39,465 nucleotides of DNA from Candidatus Woesebacteria bacterium (GCA_016926185.1 JAFGPD010000038.1:1-39465), one strand, 5' to 3'. Numbered from the stretch's first letter, positions 1 through 39,290 are shown. The notes: generated by a model not told the origin, from the sequence alone. Made by a program: numbers and translations.

Positions 1-1494
1 CTGATTATCATTTTCCTGAGTTAACTCTAAATCACTGCTTGACAACGTTACACTTCCACCAGAGACACTTTCTTCTGCATCATCTGAACTTGAACAAACT
101 CTTCTTAAAACAGTATTTGGTGATAATGGAGGTGTGGGTGAAGGTATTGGTGTAGAAGTAGGAGATGGGCGAGGTGTTGGTGTATTGTAGGGGGTAGGAG
201 TAGATCCTCCTGTACCGTTATATTCATGACCGCCGTAGTCAGGCAAACTATCACGCAAGTTATAAAAATAATCATTGTAAATTCCTGACACATGATTGTT
301 ATGATCAATTGCAGGCGAGTTTGAAAGTAATCTGAACCAGTCAGCAGTTAACGCACCTGCTGAAGTTGGTCCAATCTTTGCCAGCAGCGGGTCTCCAATC
401 ACATCTCCCTCACCTCGGGCATTTGAATTGCTCGGTGCCACTGACCAGAGATTGTGGTGGAAATGAAGATCTGGATCACTTACTCCAATTGATGCAATTC
501 GAGAACTGCTTGTATTTACAAAAATATTATTAACAACATAAGTGTTTACAATATCTTTACTACTACCGCTTAAATAAAATGTTTCGTCGCTGCTATCGTT
601 AACAAAGGTATTGTGGGCGATGGTCGCATTTGTAAGGCCGATCCAGCACGATCCGCCCTGAATATTTAGTGAACCGTTTCCACCCATTGAAAAATTATTA
701 TAAATCCTTAAACCATCAGAGGCTTCTCTTTCGGTGCTATATGATTCGTCACAAACACTAATAGAAGCATGTCCTGTGCCTGCTTCTGATTGATATGCCA
801 AGTTATTTCGTACAATTGCTCCGGGACAATTATCTATATAAATATTTACTCTGTTGTTGTACGAGATATTATTTTCAATTATAGTTCTGCGGCCTTTGAA
901 ACATGATATTGCTTCACCATCGTTCTCATAGACAAGACTGTTTCTTATGATATTGTCTTCACCCTGAGCAGTTACACTGTACGTTCCGCTTGTTCTTCCA
1001 TCTGTTCTCATCGAGTTCAGGTAGACTTCGTTGTTTTCCAATAAATTCCTGTCACCGGTGATCAATATTCCGCTTTTCCAGCTATGATGAACTTTGATGT
1101 TTTCAATTAAGTTATCATTTCCGGTTACTCCTAAAGCTCTTTGAGGAGCGCTCTCAACAGGTGTATTTTCAATCTCAAAATTACGGAATCTGATATTACT
1201 GCCGCTGATCGTGACAAGGTATTCTCCGCCGGTCATGCTACCCGCATAGATACGGGGACGCGATCCCTCGATTCCGGCGACTGTAATATTCGAGCTGGAT
1301 ATAGAAAATTGCTCGTTATAATTACCTGCGCGAACGTATACAGTGTCTCCTGAGGATACAGCATTCACTGCTGACTGGATTGTTGAATAATTATCAGGAA
1401 CATAAAAGGTAGCTGCATTTGAATATTTTGTGAATGCAATGAAAAGTAGGGTAGTGAATAAGAAAAATAATTTCTGTTTTCGTTTGAAGTTCAT
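1..1494 (-). CDS. Secreted right-handed beta-helix protein with PT-linker, C-terminus cut by window edge
   Basis: Open minus frame from ATG at 1494 (MNFKRKQKLFFLFTTLLFIAFTKYSNAATFYVPDNYSTIQSAVNAVSSGDTVYVRAG...) to base 1 with no stop; N/V-rich beta-helix repeats, then TPTPRPSPTSTPIPSP linker; paralog of the 1543-3264 gene. Not in the ORF track because it runs off the edge. Confidence 0.85.
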   Translation of the reverse strand, partial: MNFKRKQKLFFLFTTLLFIAFTKYSNAATFYVPDNYSTIQSAVNAVSSGDTVYVRAGNYNEQFSISSSNITVAGIEGSRPRIYAGSMTGGEYLVTISGSNIRFRNFEIENTPVESAPQRALGVTGNDNLIENIKVHHSWKSGILITGDRNLLENNEVYLNSMRTDGRTSGTYSVTAQGEDNIIRNSLVYENDGEAISCFKGRRTIIENNISYNNRVNIYIDNCPGAIVRNNLAYQSEAGTGHASISVCDESYSTEREASDGLRIYNNFSMGGNGSLNIQGGSCWIGLTNATIAHNTFVNDSSDETFYLSGSSKDIVNTYVVNNIFVNTSSSRIASIGVSDPDLHFHHNLWSVAPSNSNARGEGDVIGDPLLAKIGPTSAGALTADWFRLLSNSPAIDHNNHVSGIYNDYFYNLRDSLPDYGGHEYNGTGGSTPTPYNTPTPRPSPTSTPIPSPTPPLSPNTVLRRVCSSSDDAEESVSGGSVTLSSSDLELTQENDNQ

Positions 1495-1542
1495 CAAACT
1501 AAGAATACATTTTCTGGACATCTGAATCAATGTAATGAAGGT

Positions 1543-3264
1543 TTAGATAGGAGTGAAGTAGTAAGCCCAACTGGCATAATCGGTCAGATCAACATAATTA
1601 TCACAGTTAAAGTCTCCTACAGTTGGGCCTCCATAATTTCTTACAAATGGAGCAAAGTAATTAGCCCATACAGCATAGTCATATAGCGCTGCTCTTCCGT
1701 CACCATTGGCATCACCGTTTGATCGAGTGCATTGAGGAGGCGTAGTTGTCGGAGTGTTTGTAACTGTTGGCTTTGGAGTATTTGTTGGCAAGGGTGTTGT
1801 TGATGGTTGTGTACCGCTATATTCATGAGCTCCAATATCAGGGTTGGTATCACGGATGCTTCGAAAATAATCATCAAATACCTCGGGTAAGGGTATTCCA
1901 CGGTCTATAGCTGGAGAACTGCTCGTCAGCTTAAACCATTCTGCTGCTAACTCTCCACCCGTTATTGATCCTGTTCTGCTTATGTGTGGATCTCCGATTA
2001 TATCGTCATTAGGATTTTCACTTCTTACATCTGACGGTGGTGCTACCGTCCATAAATTATGCGAGAAAGTTATTCCTGGATCTCCCACACCACTTCCTGT
2101 TATTGGATGATTGCTTACAATTATATTGTTGGCAATTAGTGAATCCGAGTGTGCGCCTGCATAAATAATAAAGGCATATGACAGAGGATCGATTATAGTA
2201 TTATTGGCAAATGTCAGATCATTCAGTCCGCTTTCTGCCTCACTTGTCTGGTTATAAAAATAAAAGCCTGTATTTCCTCTCCAGAACAAATTATTGATCA
2301 CCTTTGCGTTTTTTGCTTTGAGGTTTGTAGAATCTACCACCTCATCTGTATAGTTAAAGCTATCACCAAAACGTCTTGAGCCTCCAACTTCCTTTTGATA
2401 ATAAAAAATACTATCCGGTGTGTTATAACTTATGTTTCTTTGATAAGTAGCGTTGTAGCAGTTACCCATATAGTAATGGCTATGTGATACGTTCCAAACA
2501 ATATTATCTTCAAATAATATTTCTCCTTCTCCGTCTTGATTCGCCTCATACGCGTTTATTCCAATTCCCCAATGTTCATGTACAACGTTTCTTCTTACTA
2601 TTACGTCTTTCACTCCGCCTCTGCTGATAGAGATAGCGCTGCTCCAGCAGCAAGTGCCCACCAATCTTTCCGACACGCGGGAACTGTAATAAACCTCGTT
2701 GTTTTGTATGATCACACCTGAACCTGATATCATTCTGATACCAGATCTCCAGTTATACTGAGATTTGTTATCACGTAAAGTTATATGATCTCCAGTAGTG
2801 GCAATACCATCACCACTGCTATTGGATACGATAAAACCATCGAATACTATCCAGTTACCACTGATTGTTACCAATGAACTCCATTCACTTGACGGAATAC
2901 TACCTCTTGTTGGCTGGTGGGGATTGTCGAAGTCTGGATCGGGGAGATCTCCTCTAATATTCACTTCTTCACCCGGATAAGCTTTGATAATGATAGGATT
3001 ACTGCTTGTACCAGAATTACTGATACTAACTTCTTCTGTATATGAACCTTTTCTAATATAGAGACTATCTCCTGCATAAGCAGTATCAACACCAGCTTGG
3101 ATTGTTGTAAAGTCTCCACTACCATCCTGGGCAACGGTGTAAGTGGCTGCAGATGCTGACCTAGTATATATAAGCATAAAAAGTATTGACAATGAAGAAA
3201 AAATGAATATTTTTCGTTTGAAGTTCATCAAACTAAGAATACATTTTCTGGACATCTGAATCAA
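1543..3264 (-). CDS. Secreted right-handed beta-helix (pectate lyase-like fold) protein with PT linker and C-terminal dockerin-like module
   Basis: Signal peptide; TIQAGVDTAYAGDSLYIRKGSYTEEVSI start typical of beta-helix proteins; C-term [22 protein letters not shown]...[24 protein letters not shown]. Start may be the inner ATG at 3228 (MNFKRK). Confidence 0.85.
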   Translation of the reverse strand: MIQMSRKCILSLMNFKRKIFIFSSLSILFMLIYTRSASAATYTVAQDGSGDFTTIQAGVDTAYAGDSLYIRKGSYTEEVSISNSGTSSNPIIIKAYPGEEVNIRGDLPDPDFDNPHQPTRGSIPSSEWSSLVTISGNWIVFDGFIVSNSSGDGIATTGDHITLRDNKSQYNWRSGIRMISGSGVIIQNNEVYYSSRVSERLVGTCCWSSAISISRGGVKDVIVRRNVVHEHWGIGINAYEANQDGEGEILFEDNIVWNVSHSHYYMGNCYNATYQRNISYNTPDSIFYYQKEVGGSRRFGDSFNYTDEVVDSTNLKAKNAKVINNLFWRGNTGFYFYNQTSEAESGLNDLTFANNTIIDPLSYAFIIYAGAHSDSLIANNIIVSNHPITGSGVGDPGITFSHNLWTVAPPSDVRSENPNDDIIGDPHISRTGSITGGELAAEWFKLTSSSPAIDRGIPLPEVFDDYFRSIRDTNPDIGAHEYSGTQPSTTPLPTNTPKPTVTNTPTTTPPQCTRSNGDANGDGRAALYDYAVWANYFAPFVRNYGGPTVGDFNCDNYVDLTDYASWAYYFTPI

Positions 3265-3276
3265 TGTAATGAAGGT

Positions 3277-4776
3277 TTAGATCGGAGTGAAGTAATTAGC
3301 CCATATTGCATAATCGGTCAGATCAACATAATTATCACAGTTAAAATCACCAACAGATACACCTCCATAATTTCTTACAAATGGAGCAAAATAGTTAGCC
3401 CATACCGCATAGTCATAAAGTGCTGCTCTTCCATCACCATTGGCATCACCGTTTGATCGAACACAGCCAGGAGTAGGAGTGGCTGAAATGCAGGCACCAT
3501 CATTACAACCATGTTCACAATCATAGACTAGTGTTCCTGGCACATAACTACCGCTTCCTTCAGGGCTTTCATAACACCACTTTTCATTAACTTGAGTGTT
3601 TGAACCATTACATTCATCATATAAAACGCTTTGTGTTCCAACTTCATTGGTATAAGTGACATTTCCTTTTATGAATATATCGTTTGGTGCTTCTTCCGCG
3701 TCAGAATCAACACAATTTAAAGGTTGCGGAGGGGTATTGGTCGGGCGTGGTGTTGGTGTCAGGGTTGGTCGCTGAAATTCGGTACCGCATGCATTTTGCA
3801 CGCCCAAAAGTGTAATTGTACGTGTACCGTTACTTACACCTCCATTGGCAAGATCTTCTAAAAGCACCTGGAAATTGGGAGAGCCCGAACTCCAAGACCA
3901 TGGGTTTAGCACATCTATCTTGCCCCAACCGCAAAGCTGAACATAATTATCCCAGAAGAGATAATTAGTAGATACATCCTCGCAACCGGGATATACAAAG
4001 ACCATAAGCTCATCTGTAAGATCTGACATGTATGTTTCCATGCATGAAATGAAAGAACTTGCCTGACCGCTTACGAGAAAACCTGATGCTCCCATCACCA
4101 TTTTACTGCCCAAAGGCGAAAGACCTTCTCGTGATCTCAGCAGATCAATTCTGTCTTTTACAAGCTTCATGTAGGAAAGAGAAGTAGTGCTGCCGATAGG
4201 TAAATTCGAAGGCAGACCGCCGTTTGATCTAATTACCTGATGCAGCATGTCGGCAAATCCCGGCTGGCTGTCTGTGCCAATAGGCAGTGAGTCAATATCG
4301 TTGCGTATCTCATGATAACCTCGACCGCAATTTTCCATGGTGTAACGATAACCACTGCAGCATCCGCAATTTTGCACTTCATCATAGAACCGAAGTGCAA
4401 GCAATGTACCGTCATTTACATAAGGCTGCAGCTGTGACCTTAGCGAGCTAGTCAGGATACCGTTAAAGTAGTTCACAGCTGACTGGTATTGGTAGAGGTT
4501 ATTTAACATATGATTGCATTCAGCTACACTGCCGACAGTGATGATGACGCTTTTCCCTGCTGCTCTAGCAGATTGCAATTCAGAAAGTATTTCGTTAGCA
4601 TTCCTCAGTGAACCGCTGGTATAAGCTTCCATGCTATATTGTGTCATTGCGGATATTGGCACATACATACCACCCCATTGAGTTTCGGTGCTTTGGGCAA
4701 AAACAGGCTTTACAAAGGTGGTGAAGAAAACGCCGATAAAAATGAAAATAATTAATACTTTAGGTCTTGAAGTCAT
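3277..4776 (-). CDS. Secreted protein of unknown function (possible glycosidase-like fold) with Cys-rich domain and C-terminal dockerin-like module
   Basis: 499-aa ORF, signal peptide, [13 protein letters not shown] linker, CVDSDAEEAPNDIFIKGNVTYTNE...CEHGCNDGACI domain, then dockerin-like C-term. Confidence 0.8.
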   Translation of the reverse strand: MTSRPKVLIIFIFIGVFFTTFVKPVFAQSTETQWGGMYVPISAMTQYSMEAYTSGSLRNANEILSELQSARAAGKSVIITVGSVAECNHMLNNLYQYQSAVNYFNGILTSSLRSQLQPYVNDGTLLALRFYDEVQNCGCCSGYRYTMENCGRGYHEIRNDIDSLPIGTDSQPGFADMLHQVIRSNGGLPSNLPIGSTTSLSYMKLVKDRIDLLRSREGLSPLGSKMVMGASGFLVSGQASSFISCMETYMSDLTDELMVFVYPGCEDVSTNYLFWDNYVQLCGWGKIDVLNPWSWSSGSPNFQVLLEDLANGGVSNGTRTITLLGVQNACGTEFQRPTLTPTPRPTNTPPQPLNCVDSDAEEAPNDIFIKGNVTYTNEVGTQSVLYDECNGSNTQVNEKWCYESPEGSGSYVPGTLVYDCEHGCNDGACISATPTPGCVRSNGDANGDGRAALYDYAVWANYFAPFVRNYGGVSVGDFNCDNYVDLTDYAIWANYFTPI

Positions 4777-4820
4777 TACATACAGGATATATTAATTTAG
4801 AGGGTGAAATCAATTATATT

Positions 4821-7800
4821 TTAAATTGGAGTGAAGTAGTAAGCCCAACTGGCATAATCTGATATATCCACATAATTATCACAGTTAAAATCTCCTACAG
4901 ATGGACCTCCATAATTTCTTACAAATGGAGCAAAGTAGTTTGCCCATACCGCATAGTCATATAGCGCTGCTCTTCCGTCACCATTGGCATCACCGTTTGA
5001 TTTAACACAAGCGGTTCCGTGTGTAGAAGTTGGTACGGGGGTATTAGTTGGTCCGGAAGGCGGTGTCTCGGTGGGATTTGGTGTATTTGTGGGTCTGGGA
5101 GTAGAGGTAGGTCTTGGTGTGGAAGTCGCTGTTGGAAGAGGTGTGTTGGTGGGTGTGGGTTTAGGAGTGTTAGTAGGACGGGGAGTGTTCGTTGCAGTAG
5201 GTGTTGGTGTTGAAGTGGGAGTATTGGTTGGTCTGGGTGTGTTGGTGGGAGTAGGTGTGGATGTGTTTGTCGGGGTTGGGGTCGCGGGAGGTGTTGGCGT
5301 ATTAGTGGGAAGAGGCGTATTTGTCGGAGAAGGTGTATTTGTTGCAGTAGGTCTTGGTGTTGATGTGGAAGTTGGTATTGGCTCACCGGGGGGTATGACC
5401 GGATGATAGTAATTTGCCAGATTATAATAACCTGCAAGATAGTTATTGAGAATGACTGCGTTTGTGCGGAATTCCGATAACGAACGATCGTTAAATGACC
5501 AGAAAAGTCCGCATTCATAGAGATCGTGAGCATCAATTGGTTCGCTGACTTTTGGTGTAAAAAGCTGGTCGGCGAGATCTAGAAGCTCATAGCCTTTTAT
5601 CTGATCTTGATACGAAACAACATGGGCAAGAGGAGATATAAGAGTGCTTATAAGTTCAACAGCTGTTTCACCATCTTCTAAAACGACCAGACCTCCATCC
5701 GTTTTGAAATAAAGCGGTTTGGGACAATTATCACGGTTTTCGTCTGTACAGCAGGGAAGGACTTGGTCAGAACCCCGATAAGCAATTATTGTATCTTCAT
5801 TGAATCCTCCCGTTTGGAGATCTATATAAGAGTGATTATCTTTGCTGAAACTTGCATAGAACGAGTAATAATAATTCATGGCATTATCAAGATACTGCTG
5901 AGGAGGGAGTTCGCCGCTGAGTATCGCCATCTCACCGGATAAATGCTGCGACATGTATGTCAATCCGGTTTGGGCTTTGAGTGGTTGTGGATCGTACATA
6001 TACCATTCATGTTTTCCGCCCTGGCAGATATTCAGAGGGTTGAGAGCATTATTATTTACTGTACCTTCCGGACAATAACTAAATAGACTACCACGGACTA
6101 GTTCTCCGTAAAGATTTATGTCATGATAGTTATCATCTGGTTCGTTGTTACGATCGAATGAAAATACATATCCATTGGCGTTTATACCAAAATCTTCGAT
6201 TTGCTTGTACAAGTCACCGCCGCTTTCTGCTAGCCGAGCGTTCAGTGCCATTCCGCTCATTTGCCATCCAAAGAAGTGGGGACTCATATTTTGTTCCGGC
6301 AGATTTTTCCCCATAGTCCTTCTTCCCGCAAGATCATACCAACCTATTCCAGAGTCGGGATCAAATGTTGTGTTGGGAAAATCATAATAGACACGGTTGT
6401 CGATATCAGGATCAAATATTTGTATCCAATATTCTGGGCTATTCCAATATCTTTTGTTTAAATTGTTTGGATATGATCCGTTATCTAAGATCATCCATTC
6501 AGAGGCTACTTTAGTGGCAACCGCCGAGCTGACCCTGCGGATACGTTCCCAGAGGTTGATAGTCCGGCAATTCTTTCCTTGATCATATGGAATTTCCAAA
6601 GAAGTGCAGTAGGTCTGGGGAAGAATTCCTGCCGAGTGCATTATTCCCCAAATCCTGTATATACCGCTGCTATCCGGTAAATATCTCGCTGTTACTCCAG
6701 TGTCACGAAGTTTGAACGCATCAGGAGGAAATTTTTCAGGATCAAAGGGTGCTTGCGGATAAGCTTCATAAGGAAAACCTGATAGAGGTTTTTCATATTC
6801 CGGTCCGGTGGTCAGCATATCTATCTCGTTTACCGAAAGATATGTATGAGTGATCGCATTTTCAAGATCAGATTGTTTTCGTCCTTCGGTAAGATATTTA
6901 AATAAGTGATATCTGGCAAAGAGGGTGTTTCCGGCTGCCATACATTTCCTCCACTTAGCCCAGCTATCAAGCCATATGGCATAATCTATTTCCGGAGGGT
7001 ATTTCTCTTTTTCGGTATCCGGGATGTCAGGAGGGGTATAGGGAGGGGGATTTTGACAAAACAGTCGCGCTTTCCATGTTGCTCTTATATCGGCCGGAGC
7101 ATCTGCATATTTTGCATCAAGACTTGCCGCTGAGTCTTTAAACTCATCATCTATTTTCCCATCACCGTCTAAATCTTTTCCGTCGCCATCAACATCTTCA
7201 GCAAGCTGATCGTAAAAGGGATAAAAGTTCTCTTGTGTTTGGATCACTTGCTGGAATTTATTTTTGATGGTCTCGAATTTGTGCTGCAGATTGAACCAGA
7301 CTTCCCAGTCAAACGATGGTCCGACCCAAGTCCCTTTTCTATGCCAGACCTCTCTACCATCCGGACTTATGAATCTTTGCCAGCTGGTATTATCAGGATA
7401 AACGACCTGATTGAATATTGAGATCTCGGTGTAACCGGTTTGTTCATCAATGATAAGGTCCGTTATCAAACGGTCTTCCCAGTTACCCCAATCAAAAAAT
7501 CCGGAATCAGGATTCCAGGTACCTAATCGCTGCCAAACATGCTTACGGTCTGTCGTTATTATCCTTTGCCAGCTTGTGTTGTTGGGAAAAATGACTTGGT
7601 GAAAATGTCTGATATTGGTGTTCCCGGGGATCAGCGGTTTTTCGTTCAGGTCACGAACGGACCAGGTTTCCCAGTCAAAAAAACCAATTGAGGGATTCCA
7701 TGTTCCTTTTCTCTGCCAAAGATAACGCCCATCCTGTGATAATATCCGTTGCCAGCTGATATTGTCGGGGAAAACGACCTGATTGAACATTGAGATCTGA

Positions 7801-8168
7801 GTGAGCCCTGTTTCCTCATCAATATTTGTGTCTGTCACTTGTTTTCTTTCCCAATTACTGTCCCAGTCAAAACTGTTAGTATCAGAGTTCCATACTCCTT
7901 TTCGCTGCCACAAGCGTTTTCCGTCTGAGGCAAGCGCTCTCTGCCAAGCATCGTTGTTGGGAAATACTGTTTCATTAAAATCTAATAGATCATTAAGCTC
8001 AGCAGCCTCGTACATCGGTCTTGGCTGAGGATCAAAGGGAACTTCTAATGCTGCTTTTTCCCGCAGCTCCTGTCTTTGCTGAACAAGATATATTCCGGAT
8101 GCAAGTCCTATTACAAGAAGAAGCAGTCCTACGATCGAAGAAAACTTGATACTTCGAAAGACACGCAT
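4821..8168 (-). CDS. Large secreted multidomain protein: N-terminal TM/signal, four W/F-rich repeats, ~600-aa unknown domain, long TP-rich linker, dockerin-like module
   Basis: 1115-aa ORF; repeats such as [42 protein letters not shown]; (PTNTP)n linker; [22 protein letters not shown]...C-term. Confidence 0.85.
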
Positions 8169-8281: not shown

Positions 8282-9130
8282 TTAGTTAACTTTTAGCTTT
8301 ATTCCTGGTCCCATTGTGGAAGTTACAACGGCTTTTTCGATCTGGCGTGCTGTGATCGCATCAATTACAGCTGCAATATTTTCTTCAAGCTCATTATCTT
8401 TTTGACTTACTTTTCCAACGACAGTATGCATTACCGGAGCTTTCTTTTCTGTTTTTAAGGTCAGCTCGTCGGCCGAGAATTTCTTTGCATCCGAAGGGGA
8501 CTTTATCAGTGTACCGCTTTTTGGATTGGGCATGAGTCCTTTTGGTCCGAGATCCTTTGCAAAAGGTACCAGTTTTGGCATCATGTCGGGTGTTGCCAGC
8601 AGAATGTCAAAATCAATTTTGCCCTGCTTTAGTTTCTTTACCGTATTGTCATCTGCCACTTCCACCTTCTTTGTTTTTCCAGTCGGATGGGGGAGAGTCA
8701 CTTTTGCAGATAGACCTTCCTTTTTGACAACTACGTGCATTTCAACTGTGCCGTCGAATTTGGTGTATGAGGTTTCTTTGACAAGTTTGACTGCCTTGTC
8801 CAAAGGATAAAATTTTTCTCTGTCGATTTTGGAAAGTGATGTTTTGTATTTTTTACCCCGAATTCTTGGTTCGGATGTTCTTTTATCTGATCTTTCAGAA
8901 GTTTCTTTATCAATTTTTGGTTCATCAATAGGCAGTTCTCCCCCTACTACCTTGATCCTTTCACCGCCCTTTAGCCCCACACCTGAAACTGACCCTTTGC
9001 CTTTTTTGCTAAGTTTTGCTTCTTCGGCTTTTTTGGCCTCTTGTGCTTTTTTCTTTGCCTCATAAGCAGCTTTACCTGACAGATCTTCATCAGGTACTCC
9101 GCTAATGACTGCTGTTTTTGTTTTTCCCAT
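8282..9130 (-). CDS. rplA: 50S ribosomal protein L1 with N-terminal extension
   Basis: KTEKKAPVMHTVVGKVSQ, LATPDMMPKLVPFAKDLGPKGLMPNPKSGT and ARQIEKAVVTSTMGPGIKLKVN are L1 signatures; about 95-aa Lys-rich extension at N-terminus. Confidence 0.95.
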   Translation of the reverse strand: MGKTKTAVISGVPDEDLSGKAAYEAKKKAQEAKKAEEAKLSKKGKGSVSGVGLKGGERIKVVGGELPIDEPKIDKETSERSDKRTSEPRIRGKKYKTSLSKIDREKFYPLDKAVKLVKETSYTKFDGTVEMHVVVKKEGLSAKVTLPHPTGKTKKVEVADDNTVKKLKQGKIDFDILLATPDMMPKLVPFAKDLGPKGLMPNPKSGTLIKSPSDAKKFSADELTLKTEKKAPVMHTVVGKVSQKDNELEENIAAVIDAITARQIEKAVVTSTMGPGIKLKVN

Positions 9131-9272
9131 ATGCAAATGATTAAAATGCTAATATACTAATTAATTCGAATGCTACGAATTACTACTAATTTGTTAGCGT
9201 GAATAGCTATTAAGTTTAATTATTAGTATCTATTTGTAACATTAGTATTCATTTGTTGATTAGTATTATCAC

Positions 9273-9698
9273 TTATTCTTCGTAGTCAACACCCATTGAC
9301 CTTGCTGAGCCTTGAACTATCTTCACTGCTGATTCCAGATTGTCCGTATTAAGATCGGCCATTTTGTCTGTTGCTATTTGCTCTATTTGCTGTTTTGACA
9401 ATTTCCCGGCTTTTTTTCTAGGTGTCTCACCGCTGCCTTTATCGATCTTCAGGACCTTTTTTATCATGTCTGTGACCGGTGCTAATTTTGTTTCAAAAGT
9501 AAAAGATCTGTCCTCATATATGGTGATAACAGCAGGGATGACTTCACCCTTTTTATCCTTTGTTGCGTTATTGTATTGATTGACAAAATCCATAATTGCA
9601 ACACCGTGTTGACCCAATGCCGGGCCCAACGGGGGAGCAGGGGATGCCTCTCCGCCTTTAAGGTTGACCTTTATCTTTGTTAGAACTGCTTTTGGCAT
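9273..9698 (-). CDS. rplK: 50S ribosomal protein L11
   Basis: KIKVNLKGGEASPAPPLGPALGQHGVAIMDFVNQYN... L11 signature; upstream of rplA. Confidence 0.97.
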   Translation of the reverse strand: MPKAVLTKIKVNLKGGEASPAPPLGPALGQHGVAIMDFVNQYNNATKDKKGEVIPAVITIYEDRSFTFETKLAPVTDMIKKVLKIDKGSGETPRKKAGKLSKQQIEQIATDKMADLNTDNLESAVKIVQGSARSMGVDYEE

Positions 9699-10842: not shown

Positions 10843-11910
10843 TTAAACCTTTGTTATCTGGAGAAGATCCAACTCGACTGGGGTTTCGCGGCCGAATATT
10901 GAAACTAGAACTTTTACTTTTCCTTTTTCCTCGTCAATATCGTCAACCGATCCCAAGAATCCTGAGAATGGCCCGTCTGTTATCTTGACCGCTTCACCCT
11001 TGCTGAACTTTGTCTTGAATCTTTTTGCGGGTGTTGCAACGAACTTTTGGATATTGGCAACCTCTGCATCAGAAAGGGGAGTAGGGGTTTTGCCTGTTCC
11101 GACAAAGCCTGTGATCCCGGGAGTTGTGCGCACTGCCAGCCATGTTGGGTCATCCAAAATAAGCTTTATGAGAAGGTATCCGGGAAAGATCTTTTCCTTG
11201 ATGTTTTGCTTTTTACCGCTTCTTATGATGACCCTGTCCTGTGTTGGGACTAAAAGTTCAAATATCTTATCTTCAAGCATTTGGGTTTCGACTCTTTGCC
11301 TCAAGGTTTCTGCAACACGCACTTCGTGGCCGCTTGCGGTGTGGACGACATACCATTTTGCGCGCGGATCGTCTTTTTTATTGATCACAATATGGCCGGA
11401 AACCTTTCTATTGCCTGTTCCTTTTTCCTGAAGTTTATGTTCATCATTGGGGTCGTACTCTTTATCTATTTCTTCATTTACTTCCTCTTCCTCCTCATCT
11501 TCATCATCTTCATCGTCATTGTCATCTGAGCTTGATTTATCATCCTGTTCAGTTTCAGCATTATCACTTTTTTCAATTATGTCAGTGTCTTTATCGTCTT
11601 CAGTCTTCATTTTTTCGTCTTCATTTTTCTCAGAAAAATCAGTTTCCTCGGTGTTTGCAGATTCGTTATTGTCATCCTGAGTAACTTCAGGTTCACTTTC
11701 TTTGGGAGCATCTTCGTCAGAGGTTTGATCGTCATCAGATGGGGAAGCGGTATTTGAACTTTCTTCCACAGCCTCTTCAGAAGCAGTTTTTTCATCCTTT
11801 TCGTTTACCATAGACTCTTCAGAAGGTTTGGTATCCTCCTTCTTTGGATCAACATCTTCCTTAAGGGAATCGTTTTGATCGGTTATTAGTTGGTCTTCGT
11901 CTTTTGCCAT
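10843..11910 (-). CDS. nusG: Transcription termination/antitermination protein NusG with long acidic N-terminal extension
   Basis: KWYVVHTASGHEVRVAETLRQRV...IFPGYLLIKL...VRTTPGITGFVG and KOW region KGEAVKITDGPFSGFLGSVDDID; preceded by about 170 aa of D/E/S-rich sequence. Confidence 0.95.
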   Translation of the reverse strand: MAKDEDQLITDQNDSLKEDVDPKKEDTKPSEESMVNEKDEKTASEEAVEESSNTASPSDDDQTSDEDAPKESEPEVTQDDNNESANTEETDFSEKNEDEKMKTEDDKDTDIIEKSDNAETEQDDKSSSDDNDDEDDEDEEEEEVNEEIDKEYDPNDEHKLQEKGTGNRKVSGHIVINKKDDPRAKWYVVHTASGHEVRVAETLRQRVETQMLEDKIFELLVPTQDRVIIRSGKKQNIKEKIFPGYLLIKLILDDPTWLAVRTTPGITGFVGTGKTPTPLSDAEVANIQKFVATPAKRFKTKFSKGEAVKITDGPFSGFLGSVDDIDEEKGKVKVLVSIFGRETPVELDLLQITKV

Positions 11911-37736: not shown

Positions 37737-39290
37737 ATGAAGAAAAAGTGGATCTTGTTTGTGAGTATTTCACTTGGGCTATTGTTTGTGGCGATCATAA
37801 GCTATCTTCTTGTTCAGCAAAATAGTGATGACAAGCTGGGGGAGATAGATCTTTTTCCTGATAGTGAGTTAAGTGAGAAAAGCAGTGAAGAGCCTCAAAT
37901 AAGGGAAGCTGAGGTTGCCGGACAGTTCTATCCTGCAGATAAGGAGGAGCTTTCAAATAAGATTGAAAGTTATTTAGAAAATACTTCGAAGGTTGAAGCT
38001 AATGGTAAACCCAGAGTTCTTTTTGTTCCGCATGCAGGATTGAGTTACTCGGGTCAGACTGCGGCTTGGGGCTTTTCCCAGCTTCAGGGGCATGATTATT
38101 CGCACGTTGTGATCCTTTCGGCAAATCATCAGCTTCCAAATAGCAAAGCTGCAGTCTATTCAAAAGGCATATGGCAGACACCGCTGGGGGATACAGAGAT
38201 TGACGAGAGCTTTGCGTCAAACTTGATCGATAATGAGGCAAACATTATTCCCAATACTGAACTTTTTACAGGCGATCATACTATCGAAGTTGAGCTGGTG
38301 TTTTTGCAATCAATTTTGAATAACTTTAAGATAGTTCCGGTAATCTTGGGTCAGGTGAATGATGCAACAATTGAGACACTTGCAGGAAAGCTGTCTTATC
38401 TGATGGATGAGAAAACGCTTTTATTGGTGAGCACAGATCTTTCACACTATCCAACTTGGGAAGATGCCGGTAAAGTTGATGAGAATACAATTCAAGCTAT
38501 TTTGTCTGGAAGAGAGGGAAGCTATATTGATGGGGTTTCAAAGATCAACATAAGCGACTATCAGAACTTACAAACACTTGCATGTGGTGATAAGGCAATT
38601 CGGGTTGCATTAAAAACAGCTGAACTTTTAGGTGTAAACGATTTACGAAAGATCGCTTATTCCAATTCAGGTGATGTGACAGGGGACAAAACGAAAGTTG
38701 TTGGCTACGCTGCCATAGCCGGATATAAGGATTTTTTGCCAGAGTCACAACTTGATGAACAGACAAAAGAGGAGGCGCTAACAATTGCAAGAAATACTCT
38801 AGAGACCTATTTAACTACTAAAAAAGTACCGTTGTTATATCCGAATAATAGGTATCTTTATAAGCCATTGGGGGTATTTGTTACTCTTAATAAAGTTCAT
38901 AATCTCCGCGGCTGTATAGGCCGTTTTGAACCTGCGGACCCGTTGTATGAAGTGATACAAGATACAGCAATTGACGCTGCCCTTCATGACAGCAGGTTCG
39001 ATCCAGTCCAGCCGTCAGAACTGGAAGATATCGAAATTGAGATCTCGATAATGACACCGAAGGTAATCGAAGACAGTTGGCAGGATATTGAATTAGGCAG
39101 ACACGGTGTAGTTATTCAAAAGGGAAGTAAATCCGGAACTTTTCTGCCTCAGGTGGCAACGGATACGGGATGGTCCAAGGAGGAGTTTTTATCACAACTT
39201 TGCAGTCAAAAAGCCGGACTTCCAAAAGATTGCTACAAAGACCCGTCAGTTGATATCTACACCTTCGAAGCACAAGTGTTTTCAGAATAA
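37737..39290 (+). CDS. Membrane-anchored MEMO (AmmeMemoRadiSam protein B)-AMMECR1 (protein A) fusion
   Basis: N-term TM; EAEVAGQFYPADKEELSNKI...RVLFVPHAGLSYSGQTAAWGF (MEMO); KPLGVFVTLNKVHNLRGCIGRFEPADPLYEVIQDTAIDAALHDSRFDPV (AMMECR1). Confidence 0.93.
   Translation: MKKKWILFVSISLGLLFVAIISYLLVQQNSDDKLGEIDLFPDSELSEKSSEEPQIREAEVAGQFYPADKEELSNKIESYLENTSKVEANGKPRVLFVPHAGLSYSGQTAAWGFSQLQGHDYSHVVILSANHQLPNSKAAVYSKGIWQTPLGDTEIDESFASNLIDNEANIIPNTELFTGDHTIEVELVFLQSILNNFKIVPVILGQVNDATIETLAGKLSYLMDEKTLLLVSTDLSHYPTWEDAGKVDENTIQAILSGREGSYIDGVSKINISDYQNLQTLACGDKAIRVALKTAELLGVNDLRKIAYSNSGDVTGDKTKVVGYAAIAGYKDFLPESQLDEQTKEEALTIARNTLETYLTTKKVPLLYPNNRYLYKPLGVFVTLNKVHNLRGCIGRFEPADPLYEVIQDTAIDAALHDSRFDPVQPSELEDIEIEISIMTPKVIEDSWQDIELGRHGVVIQKGSKSGTFLPQVATDTGWSKEEFLSQLCSQKAGLPKDCYKDPSVDIYTFEAQVFSE

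Follow-up and report, generated by a model that had tools for sequence, protein, structure and literature searches.

The stretch of DNA considered here, a 39,465-nucleotide contig assigned to Candidatus Woesebacteria (GCA_016926185.1 JAFGPD010000038.1:1-39465; hereafter the window), begins with a tandem array of minus-strand genes for predicted secreted proteins that end in a common module. To judge from its profile matches and loop pattern, this module is a dockerin with two 12-residue Ca2+-binding loops, and the array probably serves the surface display of a modular protein complex in the manner of a cellulosome. The explanation that best accounts for all of the data, and in which we place considerable confidence, is that secreted effectors dock through these modules onto cohesin-bearing adaptors, which would in turn be held by an anchored cohesin in a two-tier surface display. 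The label 'cellulosome' is not justified for this genome, in which no cellulase is recognizable.

The shared C-terminal module

An earlier interpretation of the window (the sequence-only reading) had singled out three consecutive minus-strand proteins of 1115, 499 and 573 residues as sharing a C-terminal module. The open reading frames are confirmed and the 62-residue modules are 90-92% identical in pairwise comparison, each being preceded by an N-terminal signal or transmembrane (TM) stretch and a Pro/Thr-rich linker. A fourth β-helix gene with a similar linker, said to run off the left edge, does so, and its missing end, located on another contig (C36), bears the same module. The module is present eight times in the genome at E ≤ 6e-19, so that the sharing is not a matter of chance, and dockerin modules of all kinds number 10. 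Among the five closest copies, synonymous divergence (dS) is 0.17-0.55 and nonsynonymous divergence (dN) 0.015-0.055; in comparisons with older copies, most dS values have reached saturation (from about 1.1 up), whereas dN is 0.12-0.37. That dN lies far below dS shows strong purifying selection on the module. A 270-nucleotide direct repeat spans the module at the 3′ end of the gene, the stop codon, an intergenic gap of 12 nucleotides and the first bases of the following gene, and the first 54 nucleotides of the two β-helix genes are identical, which suggests that the array may have undergone unit-wise duplication or gene conversion.

The module had been called a dockerin by pattern, and this assignment has held up. 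A profile constructed from 16 Microgenomatia modules was compared with the chains of solved structures, of which it matched 34 distinct examples, mostly cellulosomal dockerins; these type I/II matches include 2y3n_B (2.2e-13, the best), 4fl4_A (1.6e-11) and 1ohz_B (1.9e-5). Used singly in phmmer against solved dockerins, one module sequence gave E=0.007. When 114 modules, those of this genome together with those of relatives, are compared, each of the two 12-residue loops has D, N or S almost throughout at its Ca2+ ligand positions (1, 3, 5, 9 and 12), with positions 1 and 12 almost invariant and positions 3 and 5 conforming in nearly all, and the modules are accordingly predicted to bind Ca2+. 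Positions 10 and 11, the classical dockerin specificity sites, are Leu-Tyr/Leu-Thr (Ile-Ser) in the effector modules of this genome and mostly Gly-Leu/Val/Ile in those of relatives. A search by pattern in GenBank genome contigs found no relative of the module, and a search of a phage collection gave no match.

Cohesins, anchors and the comparison with relatives

No cohesin was visible to the sequence-only reading; the genome encodes six cohesin domains in five proteins according to a lineage profile. This profile was built with these same sequences included; three of the domains are found independently by Pfam alone, above the PF00963 cut-off of 24.1 bits (7e-13, 3e-7 and 6e-6; 48.6, 30.3 and 26.3 bits), and the cohesin on C36, scored as a whole protein, reaches 23.4 bits. 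Among solved structures the cohesin profile matches the adaptor cohesin of ScaB (3l8q_A, 3.8e-10) and an anchoring cohesin (2bm3, 3.3e-8).

Just past rpsI, and convergent with it, lies a three-gene operon (contig C38). Its products are a 327-residue protein composed of a cohesin, a Pro/Thr linker, an LPDSG motif and a TM segment; a 202-residue protein with a TM segment followed by a cohesin; and a 684-residue protein of the architecture cohesin-CBM96/DNRLRE-cohesin-dockerin. No scaffoldin has more than two cohesins, and a further adaptor, a cohesin-dockerin protein encoded on C36, sits inside the effector array itself. Contig C47, only 4.3 kb long and therefore possibly mis-binned, contributes a cohesin with a C-terminal TM segment and a dockerin protein; beside them (L015:3280-4281) is a gene whose product appears, by eye, to be CapA-like, of the polyglutamate synthesis type. 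Three sortases are encoded in the genome (best 3.5e-26). A putatively anchored cohesin scaffoldin and dockerin-bearing proteins are found together in one genome, the anchoring being judged from sequence. Several of this genome's cohesin and dockerin proteins share an N-terminal TM motif of the type G(I/L)YLVxQRQxxREKA (at the start of window 4821-8168, and at L012:10092-11378, L014:8091-9074 and L015:803-1633 and 2287-3216), possibly a signal for export or anchoring that is specific to the lineage.

In a sample of 95 genomes comprising this one and others of the same family, order and class, 52 have cohesins, 59 have dockerins and 47 have the two together (Fisher p=4e-10); the association is also seen within the family alone (p=1.5e-5). 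The gene order of the C38 operon (cohesin with C-terminal TM segment, cohesin of ~190 residues, cohesin-dockerin) is repeated in three relatives (L214, L215 and L217). The largest dockerin array seen in a relative packs some 13 genes into 20 kb (L204), a number that is not from a fair sample because the relatives whose arrays were fetched had been picked for dockerin richness; the dockerin and cohesin trees draw on the same set. Effector dockerins share a mean identity of 69.5% within a genome versus 56% between genomes, and only 39% with those on cohesin-bearing proteins of the same genome. On the dockerin tree these two kinds are separated by 5 changes as against 14.4 for shuffled labels (0/500), and the cohesin tree clusters by architecture (11 changes versus 18.4 shuffled, 0/200), in tests that correct only partly for near-copies and on trees with many unresolved forks. 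The existence in relatives of distinct effector-type and adaptor-type dockerins suggests a two-tier assembly. The effector dockerins of the present genome form a divergent clade (starred in the tree) on a long stem (1.5), and its adaptor cohesins (that of C36 and the first of the 684-residue protein) fall on long branches outside the main adaptor clade; its anchor cohesin, its short cohesin and the dockerin of the 684-residue protein fall with the corresponding types found across the class. Co-divergence of binding partners would leave such a pattern, which is seen here in a single lineage and does not amount to a test.

The two-tier arrangement would operate as follows. The operon-like array, most of which lies in the window, would encode secreted effectors that carry a dockerin specific to the lineage behind a Pro/Thr linker. 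The effectors would be exported by means of their N-terminal signal or TM sequences, and the dockerins would fold around two Ca2+ ions. Effector dockerins would then plug into the cohesins of small adaptor scaffoldins, namely the cohesin-dockerin protein of C36 and the cohesin-CBM96-cohesin-dockerin protein of C38. The dockerin of the latter, being of a different class, would plug into the surface cohesin with the LPDSG/TM anchor, probably held by sortase. The outcome would be an exchangeable display of proteins that contact the wall, glycans or a host.

Several observations weigh against this arrangement. Searched against the dockerin family, an isolated module from the window scores 21.0 bits, just short of the Dockerin_1 (PF00404) cut-off of 22.9; the cut-off is exceeded by the modules of C47, of C36:10119 and, with its neighbours in frame, of C50:3286. 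Nearly all effector modules of this genome carry Ala at position 9 of loop 1 (Ser in the cohesin-dockerin protein), and an AlphaFold model of the module from a three-row alignment was unusable (confidence score, pLDDT, 44), its two predicted helices being untrustworthy. The LPDSG-TM protein scores 16.0 bits with the LPXTG model PF00746, under the cut-off of 20. The C36 adaptor bears an effector-type dockerin, so that this genome does not keep the two tiers cleanly apart, and within the sample of 95, five genomes have a cohesin with no detected dockerin and 12 the reverse. To these must be added the limits of the shuffle tests given above and, as regards the interaction itself, that cohesin-dockerin binding, class pairing, export and effector function are all predictions from sequence. 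More tentatively, and with somewhat less than an even chance in our estimation, a two-tier, probably sortase-anchored display may be class-wide, with effector arrays that turn over fast by placing orphan N-terminal domains on a conserved plug, contact with a host or neighbour as its role in place of cellulose digestion, and co-divergence of the present lineage's effector dockerins and adaptor cohesins away from the class-wide types.

The array and its genomic setting

The window is one contig (C50) of a 1.11-Mb genome (57 contigs, 94% complete). The closest named match to its rplA is from Candidatus Woesebacteria UBA5073, at 51% identity; Gottesmanbacteria and others come next, and these named neighbors suggest that the genome belongs to the Microgenomatia, within the candidate phyla radiation (CPR). 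The features of the array are collected in Table 1.

Table 1. Positions of the array genes, dockerin modules, repeats and upstream flank in the window
Feature	Position	Strand	Description
1115-residue protein	4821..8168	-	Secreted or membrane-tethered; N-terminal TM, then W-rich ~55-residue repeats and an orphan domain, with a long PT linker before the C-terminal dockerin
Dockerin module of 1115-residue protein	4821..5009	-	
499-residue protein	3277..4776	-	Secreted; signal peptide, orphan ~310-residue domain, Cys-rich linker, C-terminal dockerin
Dockerin module of 499-residue protein	3277..3465	-	
573-residue protein	1543..3264	-	Secreted right-handed β-helix protein (PF13229, E=3e-11), C-terminal dockerin
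Dockerin module of 573-residue protein	1543..1731	-	
Fourth gene, 5′ part	1..1530	-	β-helix and PT linker; runs past left edge, rest on contig C36 (L012:11469-12161)
270-nt direct repeat	1477..1746	-	Further copies at 3211-3480 (90%) and 4755-5024 (72%)
rplA (L1)	8282..9136	-	Upstream flank of array
rplK (L11)	9273..9698	-	Upstream flank of array

To the left of base 1 the array continues on C36, the final 87 bases of which are identical to window bases 1-87. Joined across the two contigs, the fourth gene encodes 711 residues consisting of a β-helix, a linker, a second module homologous to a copy on contig C22, and the dockerin. Three more dockerin genes follow, for proteins of 428 residues (with a cohesin), 384 residues (with BP74_N) and 456 residues (with fn3), and then rplJ and rplL. 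If the contig join is right, which rests on this single 87-base overlap and on gene order, the array would comprise seven dockerin genes bounded by nusG-rplK-rplA on one side, within the window, and by rplJ-rplL on the other. One more module of this type, the eighth, stands at the start of contig C22. A scan for promoters and terminators gave signal at chance level. The GC content of the array is slightly higher (0.42 versus 0.38) and its tetranucleotide usage is odd; repeats, linkers and coding bias could account for both, and no claim of transfer is therefore made.

The N-terminal domains of the first two proteins are without recognizable family. Searched against 281 genomes of the class, the 1115-residue protein has relatives for its linker and dockerin only, bar one weak repeat-like match, and the ~310-residue domain of the 499-residue protein has relatives in none. 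The latter is possibly TIM-barrel-like, as judged by eye only; a single-sequence AlphaFold model of this domain was unusable (pLDDT 34). Residues ~60-290 of the 1115-residue protein (window about 7300-7990) form four tandem Trp-rich repeats of ~55 residues that belong to no recognized family, and one relative matched them weakly.

Cohesin genes also lie ~3-6 kb from rplK in a relative (G022, L220) and in Woesebacteria UBA5073 (L075), and a location of cohesin genes near these ribosomal genes may thus be a recurring feature. Elsewhere in the window, the product of nusG (10843-11910) has an additional N-terminal region of ~180 residues, its NusG domain being confined to residues 185-287, and a 517-residue protein (37737-39290) fuses Memo-like and AMMECR1 domains.

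Alternative readings, known systems and meaning

CPR bacteria are generally regarded as host-attached, and the alternative that survives best is attachment of an episymbiont to a host or neighboring cell through dockerin-displayed adhesins or host-contact proteins, without glycan degradation. We consider this a real possibility that falls some way short of being probable. In its favor, the effectors of this genome are not recognized enzymes: they comprise two β-helix proteins, fn3 and BP74_N proteins and two orphan domains. β-Propeller, cadherin-like and Ig domains are, moreover, common among the effectors of relatives. However, the host is not known, and clear hydrolases are present in relatives too. 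The 63 effectors surveyed there include seven PQQ-type β-propellers, four DUF5060, three β-helices, two GH5 and two metallophosphoesterases, with Ig- and cadherin-like domains and one each of sulfatase, phytase, β-lactamase-like, pectate-lyase-like and CBM6. It is because of this mixture of hydrolases and adhesin-like folds that we favor 'surface display complex' over 'cellulosome' as a description.

A true cellulosome, with polysaccharide-degrading enzymes encoded by the array and mounted on a scaffoldin for the digestion of glycans from plants or microbes, is unlikely, if not to be dismissed lightly. The 684-residue scaffoldin does combine cohesin, dockerin and CBM96/DNRLRE; the β-helix proteins have weak similarity to lyases and pectinesterases; and GH5, GHL10, sulfatase and CBM6 effectors occur in some relatives. 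Published claims also exist: passages of one report describe cohesin and dockerin genes of Candidatus Shapirobacterales as expressed (PMC9123182) and cite a cellulosome in Candidatus Roizmanbacterium (Geesink et al. 2020, as cited in PMC9123182). Against this, no glycoside hydrolase family was recognized in the dockerin proteins scanned from the present genome, each scaffoldin has at most two cohesins, and two of the N-terminal domains are orphans. The 'cellulosome-like assembly' of the sequence-only reading is thus retained for its logic of assembly only, since no effector here carries a recognized cellulase, and physical binding is a prediction.

It is improbable that the module is a non-interacting Ca2+-binding tail or a sorting tag of the PEP-CTERM kind in place of a cohesin ligand. 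The 12 of 59 dockerin-carrying genomes with no detected cohesin would fit such a role, but cohesins are encoded in this genome, one even within the array, their presence correlates with that of dockerins, and effector and adaptor classes differ at specificity positions 10/11. A PEP-CTERM-like tag in particular was rejected, as the proteins end ...YFTPI at the stop, without a TM helix or a hydrophobic or basic tail. Repeat expansion or misassembly, yielding near-identical 3′ ends without functional selection, is barely credible: the 270-nucleotide repeats do cover module and gene start, and contigs break at or near them, but older copies retain the module beside otherwise unrelated protein, many relatives have the same arrangement, and pure duplication was rejected on the excess of dS over dN between copies.

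The two-tier display preferred here has features in common with the cellulosomes of Acetivibrio/Clostridium thermocellum and A. cellulolyticus, which are type I/II cohesin-dockerin systems with scaffoldins of the adaptor and anchoring kinds. Proteins of many sorts end in a dockerin, adaptors and anchoring proteins bear the cohesins, each tier would have its own dockerin class, a scaffoldin carries a CBM, and the profiles match their solved structures. It differs in having one or two cohesins per scaffoldin and not long arrays, no recognized cellulases, an LPDSG/TM anchor with genomic sortases and not S-layer homology (SLH) domains, and an array set among ribosomal protein genes in a 1.1-Mb CPR genome. 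Ruminococcus flavefaciens and R. bromii likewise use a sortase-anchored cohesin, adaptors with one cohesin and one dockerin, and a large variety of dockerin proteins, which resemble those of this genome; their modules are of type III with other sequence features, and they are gut Firmicutes with known polysaccharide substrates.

Cohesins and dockerins in Microgenomates are already known. The Shapirobacterales and Roizmanbacterium reports concern the same supergroup and module families, whereas the passages concerned (PMC9123182) do not deal with how the genes are arranged, with tiers or anchors, or with the structure of arrays, and the effector dockerins described here form a divergent clade. 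A literature search found no description of array or tier structure in Microgenomatia, which is weak evidence given that subscription journals were mostly not covered. Dockerins outside the classical cellulolytic bacteria have also been proposed as possible adhesins in the giant open reading frames of Omnitrophota (PMC10066038), and noncellulosomal cohesin and dockerin modules have been noted (Peer et al. 2009, as cited in PMC10066038). The difference here is that cohesins, anchors and sortases occur in one genome together with a clustered effector array.

The system bears on the largely open question of how ultra-small CPR bacteria make contact with hosts or scavenge polymers. Present in roughly half of the genomes sampled from the class, a modular plug-and-socket surface system would provide defined, recombinant-ready protein pairs with which the displayed proteins could be tested, and protein engineering could draw on it for new cohesin-dockerin pairs that are perhaps orthogonal. 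It also serves as a warning that the annotation 'cellulosome' in a CPR genome need not imply the degradation of cellulose.

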